A stretch of 64,000 bases of DNA from Candidatus Neomarinimicrobiota bacterium. GTDB taxonomy: Bacteria > Fidelibacterota > Marinisomatia > Marinisomatales > TCS55. Below are positions 33,084 through 38,679 of the stretch, one piece after another. The notes beneath the pieces are model-generated. The model saw only the letters and a list, made by a program, of their open reading frames with translations, was not told where the DNA came from and ran no database searches. Location of the stretch: positions 50,136-114,135 of the forward strand of contig JABIDL010000037.1 in NCBI GenBank assembly GCA_018651745.1, written 5' to 3'. The number at the start of each line of letters is the position of its first letter. Position 1 is the first letter of the stretch. Made by a program: the position numbers and the translations under genes.

Positions 33084-35327
33084 TTATTTAAGCAGTAAAA
33101 GTTTACCCTTTTTATGTTCACGGATTCCGTTAAGGTGATAGAAATACATTCCGGAGGAAACAGAGTCACCCCAATGGTTTTTCCCATTCCAGTCAATCGC
33201 GTAGGATCCTTTTTGGAAATTCCCTTCCGCTAATGATGCTATTTTTCTCCCCCTAATATCAAAAATCGAAAGTGAAAGCCATGTATCTTTTTCCAATCCA
33301 AATTGAATGGTTGTTTTTAGATTGAAAGGATTGGGAGCCGTTTGTACATAACTGAAAGCATTTGGTGAATGGTCATTTTTCTTTTTTTCATCAACCATTT
33401 TAAGCGTAACAAAAGCAGTGCCATTTTCCCTTCGGACATGGCTCGTAACGGGAATCTGTTTTACCATGGAAAACCCATTCTGGTTTGTGGTTGTCCGCCC
33501 TCGTAGATTTTGTGTTATGACATCGTAAGTAAGATTGGGGATATCTTCAATCTTTGCGTACAATTTTAGATTGATAGGGCACCCTTCAACCCGCTCCGAT
33601 CCCACACACTTCCCATCTTTAAAAGCACCCAATTCAATAATGTTGGCCCCATTTTCAATACTTTCAATTATTACAGGCTGGTAATATTCTTTTTCTTCAT
33701 ACGTAAAATGAGGAGTGTAAGTGATTTCAGAAGGCTCGGTTTCAGACGTTTCATTCGGGGTATTCCAAGTAAATGTTATTTCATCTTCAATATCCAATTC
33801 AATGTCCAGTAAGTACGTGTTCCCGTATTCCATTTTCAGACTGCAGTCTTCGGGATCTTCACTTCCGCATCCCATATACGGAAGAAATTCACCGTCTTCC
33901 ACCGCCATAAACCAATGCTGTCCTTTTAAGAGTGTTAGGTGGTTTTTTACTTCTTGCGGTAGCGCATCAAGAGGTGATTGTGCTGTCGGCAAAAAATAAT
34001 TTATCCAGTTTTCACCGTCTTCAAGGGTGATGGGGGTTCCAGAATCAACCACTTCTCCCTGAACCGGTAATAAATAGGCGGAAGCACTATCAGACATCTT
34101 CATTTTATAACCTCGGGTACTATTGAAATTCCCCAGCCCGTTATTATCCCATGTTGAATCAATTGGATCCCATGCCATAATGCCCGATTCTGTATATCTG
34201 ACTTCTTCAACAAAGGGCACTAAAGTTTCCAAGACCAGTTCGGACGATGTTGAATCGTTATCGAGAAGCCGGGGAAAGCCTATCCAATTCCACCCTTTAT
34301 TGAGGGTTTTAGATTCAATACCAGTTATGGTATCAAAATTCTCAAGAAGTATTACATCTTGGATTGGATGCAAGATGACAAATGAGTGATCATCCATATC
34401 ATTTTGCCAGCTGTATGGGTCACTTGAAATTGTCATGATGGACTTATAAGCACCTTTAAAATCCTGGGATTCAGGAAAAGCAACAGTGTAAACAAGAGGA
34501 TGATTGGTATTGTTGTTGTCAATTCGTCGGAATCCATAGAGTTGCTCTCCATCAGAAAAGATGAAATTCTTGTCTCCAGATCCCTGGAAAAAATTTGGAT
34601 TACTAAGAGCTTGATTTATCCCGCTTAATACATCGTAATCATTTATAGCTATGTGTAACATTAACCAAGAGAAATAAATTTCAGAATCTACCACACATTG
34701 CCAACCACCGGTGGACGATTCATCTTCCCAATCGCTGCCGCACGCATTACCCGAAGAGGTTATGTAACCTTCGAACGTTTGCGGAGGATGCTCGTTTAGC
34801 CAATTGGGGTCAATCCCTAGTATAAGATCCCTAACAATCTCTTTTTCAATCGTGCCGTTATGTGCAAAAGAATAGTCTCGTCCGTCTTCACCGTTCCAAA
34901 TAAATGGATGAGGATTAGGTATACCTTGGGATCCTGTAGTTGCGCGCCTAACGTGACCTAAAGCTAGGTTAGCAATTTCATCATTAATAGCATATAATAT
35001 AGAATCTTGAGCATTGTTATAATTCCAACTATTCCATGCTGGTTCTACACCTCTAAAAATCTGGTTTTCAAGCAATATTAAAGGGTTTTTGTTACTATAG
35101 AAGAGTAGTCCCCATCCATCGTCACTATTATACTCCCAAGACGAACCTGAGCCCCCCTGCAATTTTAATCGATTAAGTTGGGCATCAATAAAAGTCATTA
35201 CATTATTATGATATGGACCGCTACTGTCATAACCATTTTTCATAATAACTCCCCATAGTTTTGAACCTTGTAGCGATTGCATTGGAGATAGGCAAATAGT
35301 AATAGTAATTATTACTTTGAAAACCAT
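33084..35327 (-). CDS. Exported class-II glutamine-amidotransferase-like protein with T9SS sorting domain
   Basis: A 747-residue exported protein. The N-terminal part (about residues 22-260) matches the Ntn-type class II amidotransferase fold (GATase_4/YafJ-like): KLWGVIMKN, DGWGLLFY (70-77), GHVRRATTG (124-132), NPHPF (138-142) and FAHNGTI (154-160). In known members the nucleophile is an N-terminal Cys at the position before R/K-L-W-G. Here that residue is Ser22 (codon TCA). If signal peptidase cuts after Gly21, Ser22 becomes the N-terminus. The rest is beta-rich linkers and a T9SS type-A C-terminus (TAPNPFNLKTTIQF). Amidotransferases are normally cytoplasmic, so secretion is striking. Activity is uncertain. 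Confidence 0.82.
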   Translation of the reverse strand: MVFKVIITITICLSPMQSLQGSKLWGVIMKNGYDSSGPYHNNVMTFIDAQLNRLKLQGGSGSSWEYNSDDGWGLLFYSNKNPLILLENQIFRGVEPAWNSWNYNNAQDSILYAINDEIANLALGHVRRATTGSQGIPNPHPFIWNGEDGRDYSFAHNGTIEKEIVRDLILGIDPNWLNEHPPQTFEGYITSSGNACGSDWEDESSTGGWQCVVDSEIYFSWLMLHIAINDYDVLSGINQALSNPNFFQGSGDKNFIFSDGEQLYGFRRIDNNNTNHPLVYTVAFPESQDFKGAYKSIMTISSDPYSWQNDMDDHSFVILHPIQDVILLENFDTITGIESKTLNKGWNWIGFPRLLDNDSTSSELVLETLVPFVEEVRYTESGIMAWDPIDSTWDNNGLGNFNSTRGYKMKMSDSASAYLLPVQGEVVDSGTPITLEDGENWINYFLPTAQSPLDALPQEVKNHLTLLKGQHWFMAVEDGEFLPYMGCGSEDPEDCSLKMEYGNTYLLDIELDIEDEITFTWNTPNETSETEPSEITYTPHFTYEEKEYYQPVIIESIENGANIIELGAFKDGKCVGSERVEGCPINLKLYAKIEDIPNLTYDVITQNLRGRTTTNQNGFSMVKQIPVTSHVRRENGTAFVTLKMVDEKKKNDHSPNAFSYVQTAPNPFNLKTTIQFGLEKDTWLSLSIFDIRGRKIASLAEGNFQKGSYAIDWNGKNHWGDSVSSGMYFYHLNGIREHKKGKLLLLK

Positions 35328-35809: not shown

Positions 35810-36991
35810 ATGAAAATAAATATTCTAAACAAAATCGAACTAATTAAAAATGAAATCATTACTACGCGCCGCGATATTCACAAACATCCTGAACTCGGAT
35901 TTCAAGAAATCCGAACCGCCGGACTGGTTGCTAAAAGACTACAATCGCTGGGCATGGATGTAAAAACAGGTGTAGGAAAAACCGGCGTTGTCGGAGACTT
36001 AAAAGGGAAAGGAGAGGGTCCTACAATTGCGCTTAGAGCAGACATGGACGCCCTACCCATTCAGGAAACAGGAGAGAAAGAATATATTTCAGTTAATGAT
36101 GGCGTGATGCATGCCTGCGGGCATGATGGTCACGTGGCCATGCTCTTAGGCGCCGCCAAAGTGTTGGCGGAAAAAAGGGATGAACTAAATGGAAATGTAC
36201 GTTTCATTTTTCAGCCGGCGGAAGAAGGAGAAGGAGGCGCTCGTTATATGATTGAAGACGGTTGCCTAGAGGATGTGGATGAGATTTACGGAATTCATTT
36301 ATGGACCTATCAAAACACGGGAGAAATTGGAATCAAGCCCGGTCCGATTTTGGCGTATGCTGATAAGTTTACCATTACGGTTAAAGGAATCGGTGGTCAT
36401 GGCGCCGCACCGCACGGGTCGGTGGATGCTGTTCTTGTTGCATCTCATTTGGTAATAGCGCTGCAAACCATTGTTAGCCGAAATACCGATCCGCTAAAAA
36501 GTTCGGTAGTTTCGATTGGGAAAATAAATGGAGGTTACAATTTTAACGTGATTGCAGATGAAATTGTGTTATTGGGAACAGCAAGAGCCTACGAAGAAGA
36601 TATTCAAGCCATGATTAAAAAACGGATGGGAGATATTATTGATGGAGTTGCTCAAACGTTTGGCGCAAAGATTAAGTTTGACTATCAGGAAGGTTATCCT
36701 GCCACGATTAATGATGAAGTTGCGTATGAAAAGTTATTAAGCTCAGCGAAAAAGATTGTGGGTGAAGGTGCAGATTTTCCTTATCTCTCAATGGGTGGGG
36801 AAGACTTCAGTTATTATGCGCAAAAAGTTCCGGGATGCTTCTTTTTTGTAGGTGCAGCGCCAAAGAATCAACCATTTCAGAGTGTACCACACCATTGTTC
36901 TCATTTTGATATTGATGAAGAAGCACTTTTGGTTGGCGCTTCAGTATTTGTTCAGGTTGTGGAGGATTTAATAGGGAAAAATTCTCAGTAG
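35810..36991 (+). CDS. M20-family amidohydrolase (N-acyl-amino-acid / IAA-type)
   Basis: A 393-residue M20D metallopeptidase that hydrolyses N-acyl or N-carbamoyl amino acids or related amides. Metal ligands are visible: Cys103 and His105 in HACGHDGH, Glu138-Glu139 in QPAEEGEGGA, a later His in IYGIHLW, and the C-terminal SMGGEDFSYY to HHCSHFD. The RRDIHKHPELGFQE opening is the family's hallmark. Length is normal. It probably acts in the cytoplasm because there is no signal peptide. Its 3' end overlaps the convergent gamma-glutamyltransferase by 7 bases. Confidence 0.93.
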   Translation: MKINILNKIELIKNEIITTRRDIHKHPELGFQEIRTAGLVAKRLQSLGMDVKTGVGKTGVVGDLKGKGEGPTIALRADMDALPIQETGEKEYISVNDGVMHACGHDGHVAMLLGAAKVLAEKRDELNGNVRFIFQPAEEGEGGARYMIEDGCLEDVDEIYGIHLWTYQNTGEIGIKPGPILAYADKFTITVKGIGGHGAAPHGSVDAVLVASHLVIALQTIVSRNTDPLKSSVVSIGKINGGYNFNVIADEIVLLGTARAYEEDIQAMIKKRMGDIIDGVAQTFGAKIKFDYQEGYPATINDEVAYEKLLSSAKKIVGEGADFPYLSMGGEDFSYYAQKVPGCFFFVGAAPKNQPFQSVPHHCSHFDIDEEALLVGASVFVQVVEDLIGKNSQ

Positions 36992-38679
36992 CCGACAACG
37001 GAATTTTCACCACGCGGATCGGCACCACCATTGAACCCGGTGGAGTCAGCAGCAATCGCATTTACATTCCCGATGCTTCCACTTCCGTAAATGGCAATCT
37101 CGTGCCCTTTTTGTTTTAGATTATTTTCAACATCTTTCGATATTGCGCGAGTTTCAATAAAAATCATATCTGGCAGCCATTGCGAGTGAATGCGTGGCAC
37201 GGAAACGGCCGTTTGTATATCCATTCCAAATACAACCCTATTTAAAATCGTTTGAAACACAGTAGTAATTATTTTTCCTCCTCCTGGCGAGCCGACAACT
37301 ATAACCGGTTTTTCATCCTTTAAAAGAATTGTCGGTGTCATCGAACTCAGTGGCCGTTTCATGGGTTCAATGGAATTGGATTCTTTTCCTACAAGGCCGA
37401 AATAGTTAGGCGATCCCGGTTTTGCGGAAAAGTCATCCATTTCATTGTTTAGAAAAAACCCTGCACCTTCCACCACAACACCTGAGCCGAAACCAGTATT
37501 TATGGTGGTAGTTACGGAAACGGCATTGCCGTTGGCGTCCATCACAGAATAATGGGTTGTTTCGGGGCTTTCGTACGGTAGCGGATCACCGGCGAAAACC
37601 ATAGCGCTTGGTGTAGCTTTTTCCATGGTAATTGTTTTTGCGCGCTCTTCAGCATACGTTTCGGAAGCAATCATACTGAGCGGAACCTTCCAAAAATCCA
37701 TATCGCCCATATGCTCAGCGCGGTCGGCATACGCGCGCCTTTCAATTTCAGTCAGCACATGAATGTAATTAGAAGAATTCCACCCAAGGGAATCTAATTC
37801 AAAATGTTTGGTCATATTTAGCATGTGGATGAGCAATGCGCCTCCGGAGCTGGGTGGACCCATTGAAACAACATCAAAACCATGAAATTTCCCTATGACC
37901 GGTTTGCGATATTTTGATTCATAATTTTCCAGATCAGCGTGAGAGATAATCCCACCACCTTCTCTCATTTCTGCTACTATTAAATTTGCTACAGCGCCGG
38001 AATAAAACCCATCACGCCCATATTTTGAAATTCGCTTCAGGGTTCTTGCAAGATCACGCTGGACGAGATAATCGCCTTCCTGCCATGGATGCCCATCTTG
38101 CCTAATAAATATTTCTGAAGCGCCGTCATCTCTTGCAAAAAAATCATTAAACCAGTTTAATAACGCTGCATATCTACGGGTGATTGGGAAACCATTTTGT
38201 GCTAGATTAATAGCGGATGTCAAAATTTGTTGTCGGGATACTTTCCCGGATCCATAATCTTCAAACACTTTTAAGAGGCCGTCTACAGATCCCGGGACAC
38301 CCGATGATAAATGAGAATGAAGCGCAAGCTCACGGTTTACTCCACCGGTGTCATCAATGAACATGTCGCGGTGCGCAGCTTTTGGCGCCATTTCTCTGTA
38401 ATCGAGCGTGAGCTCGGCGCCGTCTTCCAAATGCACCACCATAAATCCTCCACCGCCAATATTTCCCGCTTGCGGAAGTGTGACCGCCAGCGCGAATCCA
38501 GTTGCAACAGCAGCGTCTATAGCATTACCGCCTTTCTTAAGAATGTTCACACCAGCCTCAGAAGCCCACACGCTGGATGAAACGACCATTCCATTTTCTG
38601 CGTGAACGGGTCGTGGGTTGGCACTTTGCGCAAGTGTTGAGAATAAGAAAATTAATATGGTTCGTCGAATTGAATTCAT
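36985..38679 (-). CDS. ggt: Gamma-glutamyltransferase
   Basis: A 564-residue periplasmic Ntn-hydrolase that removes gamma-glutamyl groups from glutathione and similar peptides. It carries a signal peptide (about residues 1-20, ending LAQSA). The self-processing site is the second Thr of ETTHYSVMD, which becomes the N-terminus of the small subunit. SSMTPTILLKD and GSPGGGKIITT are the conserved small-subunit binding loops, and GNIGGGGFMVVH the large-subunit one. Together with the M20 enzyme and the aminotransferase next door it fits amino-acid scavenging from peptides. Confidence 0.95.
   Translation of the reverse strand: MNSIRRTILIFLFSTLAQSANPRPVHAENGMVVSSSVWASEAGVNILKKGGNAIDAAVATGFALAVTLPQAGNIGGGGFMVVHLEDGAELTLDYREMAPKAAHRDMFIDDTGGVNRELALHSHLSSGVPGSVDGLLKVFEDYGSGKVSRQQILTSAINLAQNGFPITRRYAALLNWFNDFFARDDGASEIFIRQDGHPWQEGDYLVQRDLARTLKRISKYGRDGFYSGAVANLIVAEMREGGGIISHADLENYESKYRKPVIGKFHGFDVVSMGPPSSGGALLIHMLNMTKHFELDSLGWNSSNYIHVLTEIERRAYADRAEHMGDMDFWKVPLSMIASETYAEERAKTITMEKATPSAMVFAGDPLPYESPETTHYSVMDANGNAVSVTTTINTGFGSGVVVEGAGFFLNNEMDDFSAKPGSPNYFGLVGKESNSIEPMKRPLSSMTPTILLKDEKPVIVVGSPGGGKIITTVFQTILNRVVFGMDIQTAVSVPRIHSQWLPDMIFIETRAISKDVENNLKQKGHEIAIYGSGSIGNVNAIAADSTGFNGGADPRGENSVVGY

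Follow-up and report, generated by a model that had tools for sequence, protein, structure and literature searches.

Analysis of a 64,000-nucleotide window from a Candidatus Neomarinimicrobiota genome identified a 747-residue predicted secreted protein that is a Ser variant of the class II amidotransferase fold family rather than a standard member of it, since it possesses Ser22 at the position where class II amidotransferases have their defining Cys nucleophile. Among its relatives, Cys and Ser have replaced each other repeatedly at this position while the rest of the active site has been preserved, and the versions of the protein that have a middle domain are, with one exception, directly followed by a gene for a β-helix partner. 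We tentatively suggest that it could represent a natural Ser-type class II enzyme whose nucleophile would be bared by signal peptidase, leaving it free to swap Cys and Ser while remaining active, and that, together with its partner, it may make up a T9SS surface module of two proteins that has not been described before and occurs in three phyla.

The protein displays a signal peptide, a class II glutamine amidotransferase (Ntn) domain, a middle β domain (MID) and a T9SS tail (Table 1). The ATG one codon below an upstream stop is the sole start codon ahead of the signal peptide (MVFKVIITITICLSPMQSLQG, directly followed by the residues SKLWGV); thus, no longer N-terminus is possible for this protein. 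The preliminary description had placed a Ser, encoded by TCA, at the nucleophile position right after Gly21, and we recovered precisely this arrangement, with LQG↓S constituting a permitted cleavage site. The Ntn core motifs that it listed (D70-GWG, H125-VRRATTG, N138-PHPF and A155-HNG) were likewise all found in the reading frame. The Pfam GATase_4 model matches the protein at E 3e-10, above the Pfam cut-off, and a genome-wide search found no second GATase_4 match in the window's own genome.

Table 1. Features of the Ser-variant protein, its partner and its neighbours, in positions of the window
Feature	Residues	Position	Strand	Evidence or remark
Secreted class II amidotransferase-fold (Ntn) protein, 747 aa		33084..35327	-	ORF; GATase_4 and T9SS tail matches
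Predicted signal peptide, permitted -3/-1 site LQG↓S	1-21	35265..35327	-	Sequence; predicted by the -3,-1 rule
Predicted N-terminal nucleophile Ser22 (codon TCA); most relatives have Cys	22	35262..35264	-	Alignment; structural alignment
Mature Ntn catalytic domain	22-336	34320..35264	-	AlphaFold2 pLDDT 90.1, pTM 0.91; VIA-align Z 21-22
Arg127, equivalent of PurF Arg73	127	34947..34949	-	Invariant in alignment; on the PurF/GFAT HxR motif
His156-Asn157-Gly158 (HNG), oxyanion-hole motif	156-158	34854..34862	-	Aligned to HNG of GFAT/PurF
Asp214-Ser215-Glu216 (DSE), substrate amino-group motif of class II amidotransferases	214-216	34680..34688	-	Aligned to DSE of 3mdn (SPO2029)
Middle β domain (MID)	333-655	33363..34331	-	AlphaFold2 pLDDT 79.8; presence predicts partner gene
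C-terminal T9SS sorting tail	656-747	33087..33362	-	Por_Secre_tail/TIGR04183
Partner: DUF1565 parallel-β-helix protein with T9SS tail, 749 aa		30831..33080	-	DUF1565 E 3e-11; Por_Secre_tail E 3e-12
M20 hydrolase/amidohydrolase gene		35810..36991	+	
Gamma-glutamyltranspeptidase-like (secreted) gene		36985..38679	-	

Residues 22–336 are confidently predicted to adopt the class II glutamine amidotransferase fold (SCOPe d.153.1.1, the α-β-β-α Ntn fold): VIA-align superposed the AlphaFold2 model on PurF (Z 22.2), EgtC (Z 21.9) and GlmS (Z 21.0) over 216–234 residues, with residue 1 of the model, i.e., Ser22, aligned onto the catalytic Cys (Cys1/Cys2) of all three. The Arg of HxR, the HNG motif and the Asp of DSE, which make up the glutamine site, are all present and conserved in the family; the DSE motif is an addition to those listed in the preliminary description. 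The invariant or near-invariant columns of the alignment (H125, R127, G132, H140, H156-N157-G158 and D214-S215-E216) correspond to this site: HNG is kept in 100% of the Ser rows and its Asn in 97% of the Cys rows, whereas across the relatives the D and S of DSE are invariant and the E is retained in 97–100%. In three Cys relatives (L066, L049 and L098), the oxyanion Asn is lost, with HGG or HHG in place of HNG; hence, activity may be lower in some of the Cys members than in those with Ser. One point that speaks against an active enzyme is that Arg26, a functional residue of GlmS, corresponds to a Gln in the 747-residue protein when the two are aligned by eye. In PurF, the Arg equivalent to Arg127 (Arg73) binds the α-carboxylate of a glutamine analogue (PMC7953260). 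The likely substrate would be glutamine or another γ-glutamyl amide, as in PurF, EgtC and DUG3, a proposal we make because Arg127 and Asp214 are kept.

Among characterized proteins, EgtC (PDB 4zfj/4zfk/4zfl) and yeast DUG3 may provide the closest model of action, namely the hydrolysis of a γ-glutamyl amide in the absence of a synthase domain. They resemble the 747-residue protein in the fold, the N-terminal position of the nucleophile and the Arg and Asp motifs of the glutamyl site, but the latter differs in its predicted export, its Ser, the middle domain, the T9SS tail and the β-helix partner; to our knowledge, neither EgtC nor DUG3 is exported, and both have a Cys nucleophile. The glutaminase domains of PurF and GlmS share the fold (Z 21–22) and the HxR (Arg73), HNG and DSE-type motifs, but they are cytosolic, use Cys1 as the nucleophile and are fused to an ammonia-fed synthase domain. 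No known synthase or acceptor domain was found in the 747-residue protein, the remainder of which comprises a β-rich domain without a family or PDB match followed by the sorting tail. The nearest solved structures by sequence, the YafJ/GATase_4 proteins 1te5 (profile E 1e-12) and 3mdn (SPO2029; E 9e-14), have a Cys nucleophile, differ in having neither a sorting tail nor a partner, and bear no signal peptide that we know of. Finally, the Ser-type Ntn hydrolases penicillin G acylase and PvdQ are likewise exported and possess an N-terminal Ser nucleophile, but they belong to a different Ntn family, in which autoproteolysis at the junction of two subunits exposes the Ser (PMC5474475). A literature search of limited reach, and hence of little weight, found neither a secreted class II amidotransferase in T9SS bacteria nor a Ser class II nucleophile.

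The sorting-domain matches of the tail are borderline, with the Pfam model scoring 23.7 bits, just under its cut-off of 27, and NCBIfam TIGR04183 scoring just over its own. About 50 further tails of a similar T9SS kind were found in the window's own genome, which also codes for the T9SS core components SprA (SprA_N E 7e-34) and PorU (E 3e-175, over the cut-off). The earlier assignment of the protein to the T9SS thus finds support in the signal peptide, the borderline tail matches and the presence of SprA and PorU. As a protein with a signal peptide and a sorting domain encoded by a genome with a T9SS, it has the makings of a T9SS substrate, and its sequence points to a probable location at the surface.

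To understand the substitution, we turned to the relatives of the protein. A scan of genome contigs with the single protein found none; whole-genome searches and a profile scan did yield relatives, the best named ones in the latter being mostly from Candidatus Neomarinimicrobiota genomes. We searched 245 genomes of Neomarinimicrobiota and obtained matches in 65, the loci of which were fetched and aligned, and matches were also found in 51 of 124 genomes of Cloacimonadota; the family spans three phyla, namely Neomarinimicrobiota, Cloacimonadota and Delongbacteria. Position 22 is occupied only by Cys or Ser in about 100 relatives, and the 71-row set used for the tree features 63 Cys, 8 Ser and nothing else. 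The Ser members are the window protein and those of genomes G180, G177, G237, G241, G238, G128 and G124, while all relatives read from Cloacimonadota and Delongbacteria have Cys. One Cys relative, that of G025, shares 44% identity with the window protein across the catalytic domain. The Ser codons at this position come from both boxes, AGY and TCN; this, along with the seven relatives that share the residue, indicates that Ser22 is not a stray error.

We then examined how often the exchange has occurred. First, we left the nucleophile column out of the alignment of the 71 catalytic domains, and on the resulting tree the Cys/Ser label needs 7 changes by parsimony, at least 3 of which are forced by well-supported branches. 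Second, in a whole-protein tree of 15 enzymes paired with a partner, there are 4 changes between Cys and Ser, all of them forced, and every change found is between these two residues. A single origin for Ser is ruled out by the two trees; Ser arose repeatedly, with at least 4 well-supported switches among the 15 paired enzymes. Third, only 2 of the 7 amino-acid-changing single mutations of a Cys codon yield Ser, giving a chance of ~0.007 for 4 out of 4 switches to Ser under mutation alone, a value that would go up with tolerance of Ser at +1 by signal peptidase. In our sample, Ser is confined to the long forms (7/7 of the complete Ser members are long versus 11/61 of the Cys members; p 3e-5), an association confounded by descent.

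The preliminary description had proposed that export would bare the N-terminal nucleophile and had suggested aligning homologues to see if a Ser or Cys is found there with a cut just before it. The alignment gave the 63 Cys and 8 Ser; a signal peptide could be read in 64 relatives, and in 48 of these the nucleophile immediately follows a site that the -3/-1 positions permit for signal peptidase. Other nearby positions rarely qualify as often under the -3,-1 rule; the shifts of +5 and +8 do, but these fall inside the conserved mature domain. The idea fits the sequences of the Ser members, all eight of which have the permitted site right before Ser, but it does not extend to the whole family, as Pro, Asp or Glu occupies -1 in some Cys relatives. 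The association of Ser with an exact site, which every Ser member has, is weak and suggestive only (p 0.05 with all relatives counted and 0.18 in Neomarinimicrobiota alone; the relatives are not independent).

The Cys relatives that depart from this pattern fall into three sets. Pro is found at -1 in 14 of them, nearly all from one genus: in the corresponding loci (L013–L028 and L077, mostly of one genus, G223–G241), most Cys relatives have LFPC, with Pro right before the nucleophile, where signal peptidase I should not cut. Asp or Glu is found at -1 in 18 of the 34 Cloacimonadota/Delongbacteria relatives (loci L161–L195); about half of the relatives from these two phyla show one such residue between a good cut site and the Cys (FA↓D-C, YA↓E-C in Cloacimonadota), like a one-residue propeptide. 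In a distant relative from Phycisphaerae (L127:292-2916), ~16 residues separate the likely signal-peptide cut from the Cys, and propeptide cleavage would be needed. On account of the Pro or Asp/Glu at -1 and this longer stretch, some members of the wider family, all of them with Cys, are likely to be processed in another way. The same relatives would fit a more general explanation, in which self-cleavage or a protease other than signal peptidase exposes the nucleophile, as in PurF-type propeptides, with the signal-peptidase fit being secondary; moreover, class II amidotransferases are reported to trim off their first few residues on their own (PMC9140057). However, the exact placement of a permitted site in every Ser member, including the window protein, speaks against it, and we consider this explanation improbable.

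We also considered whether the Cys of the relatives might be a lipoprotein Cys, with the Ser forms being non-lipidated secreted versions. A strict lipobox is indeed present in 9 of the 56 Cys relatives, but the remaining 47, among them the Pro-Cys forms, have none, most of the proteins bear T9SS-type tails, and the position falls on the catalytic Cys of PurF, GlmS and EgtC in the fold. The window protein itself has Ser22 in place of a lipobox Cys. We rejected this explanation as very improbable.

Under the reading that we prefer, Sec-dependent export would be followed by a signal peptidase I cut after Gly21, which would leave Ser22 as the N-terminus and make autoproteolysis unneeded, and the T9SS tail would then direct the protein to the cell surface or the medium. 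The exchange of Cys and Ser, itself seen several times, would be possible because export, not self-cleavage, bares the nucleophile.

The Ser forms could instead be pseudoenzymes that have lost hydrolysis, with the Ntn domain reduced to a binding or structural role in a surface pair and the Cys forms remaining active. Cys-to-Ser changes usually hurt Cys-type Ntn enzymes, and the class II fold has dead relatives, e.g., β-lactam synthetase (Z 11.6 in the match list), which is not known to have glutaminase activity. Further, genomes G238 and G241 each code for one Ser pair and one Cys pair, in tandem in G241, as would be expected if the copies divide labour. Class II amidotransferases use Cys, and self-cleavage at the nucleophile has been called universal in Ntn enzymes; Secernin-1 (SCRN1), which naturally has Ser, has lost self-cleavage and probably acts other than by hydrolysis, and self-cleavage is also lost when the Cys of PLBD2 is mutated to Ser (PMC9140057). 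SCRN1 resembles the present proteins in that a naturally occurring Ser takes the place of the Cys typical of its Ntn family, but it is a cytosolic member of the PVA-type subfamily and a single human paralogue, whereas in this family the switch recurs, in proteins predicted to be exported and with the active sites kept. The self-cleavage constraint seen in SCRN1 would not apply to an enzyme if signal peptidase exposed its nucleophile.

Several observations weigh against the pseudoenzyme explanation. Ser is the sole replacement in several independent switches, and the other active-site residues are invariant in the Ser forms: the preliminary description had named their loss in homologues as an outcome that would speak against its proposal, and when we looked for it, we found H125, R127, G132, H140, N157, G158, D214, S215 and E216 kept in 7/7 complete Ser members. 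Conservation stands at 91% in the Ser forms (29 conserved columns), no worse than the 79% of the paired Cys forms (39 columns). Finally, the one close Ser pair has a dN/dS of 0.23 for the domain and 0.18 for the protein, close to the 0.18 found for two Cys members that have diverged about as much, which would argue against decay while stopping short of proving catalysis. We regard inactive Ser forms, the main rival explanation, as rather unlikely, and return to the active, export-bared enzyme in what follows.

The middle domain ties this enzyme to a second gene. Pfam gave no family for the MID, and nothing in the PDB matched its fold at E below 0.001, the top hits having a TM of about 0.15 and not being usable. 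Directly downstream of the enzyme, after a 3-base gap, lies the gene for the β-helix partner, which has a signal-peptide-like start of its own. A comparison of ten relatives' loci with the window proteins showed that it is this partner, rather than the other neighbours in general, that accompanies the enzyme. The preliminary description, whose coordinates end short of the partner gene, had noted neither this association nor the Cys that most relatives have at position 22. Among loci with readable flanks, a full-length partner homologue directly follows 29 of the 30 MID-bearing enzymes on the same strand in all three phyla (14/14 in Neomarinimicrobiota, 14/15 in Cloacimonadota and 1/1 in Delongbacteria); the G124 enzyme is split over two contigs, and its adjacency was read from the C-terminal part. 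In contrast, none of the 17 MID-less enzymes, as tallied by hand from the locus tables, is followed by the partner (p 7e-12, if the relatives are treated as independent). The only full-length partner seen without an adjoining enzyme gene is L154:5199-7577 (G224:C239).

A 1112-residue Ser form from G180 (L129:7769-11104) lacks the MID and has β-helix segments similar to the partner, making it a possible fusion; a Rosetta-stone reading of it is weak, since β-helix repeats are common in such genomes. The window also features a γ-glutamyltranspeptidase-like gene and an M20 hydrolase/amidohydrolase gene next to the enzyme, and a functional link was considered because of their chemistry; we discarded it, as the ten loci of 10–20 kb that we inspected around the genes of relatives yielded no homologue of either.

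Overall, we lean, by a little, towards the protein being a surface amidase that acts on glutamine or γ-glutamyl amides through a Ser at its N-terminus and that forms a module with the β-helix protein. The enzyme would act together with the downstream protein, whose gene order is directly observed, and would probably be docked to it via the MID.

The conserved partner offers a first handle on function: by gene order, 29 of 30 cases point to a probable module of two surface proteins, in marine and anaerobic phyla that have received little study. The interchange of Cys and Ser with the rest of the site fixed amounts to a natural experiment on the requirement for the nucleophile, and makes it testable whether it is self-cleavage, rather than catalysis, that binds class II amidotransferases to Cys.
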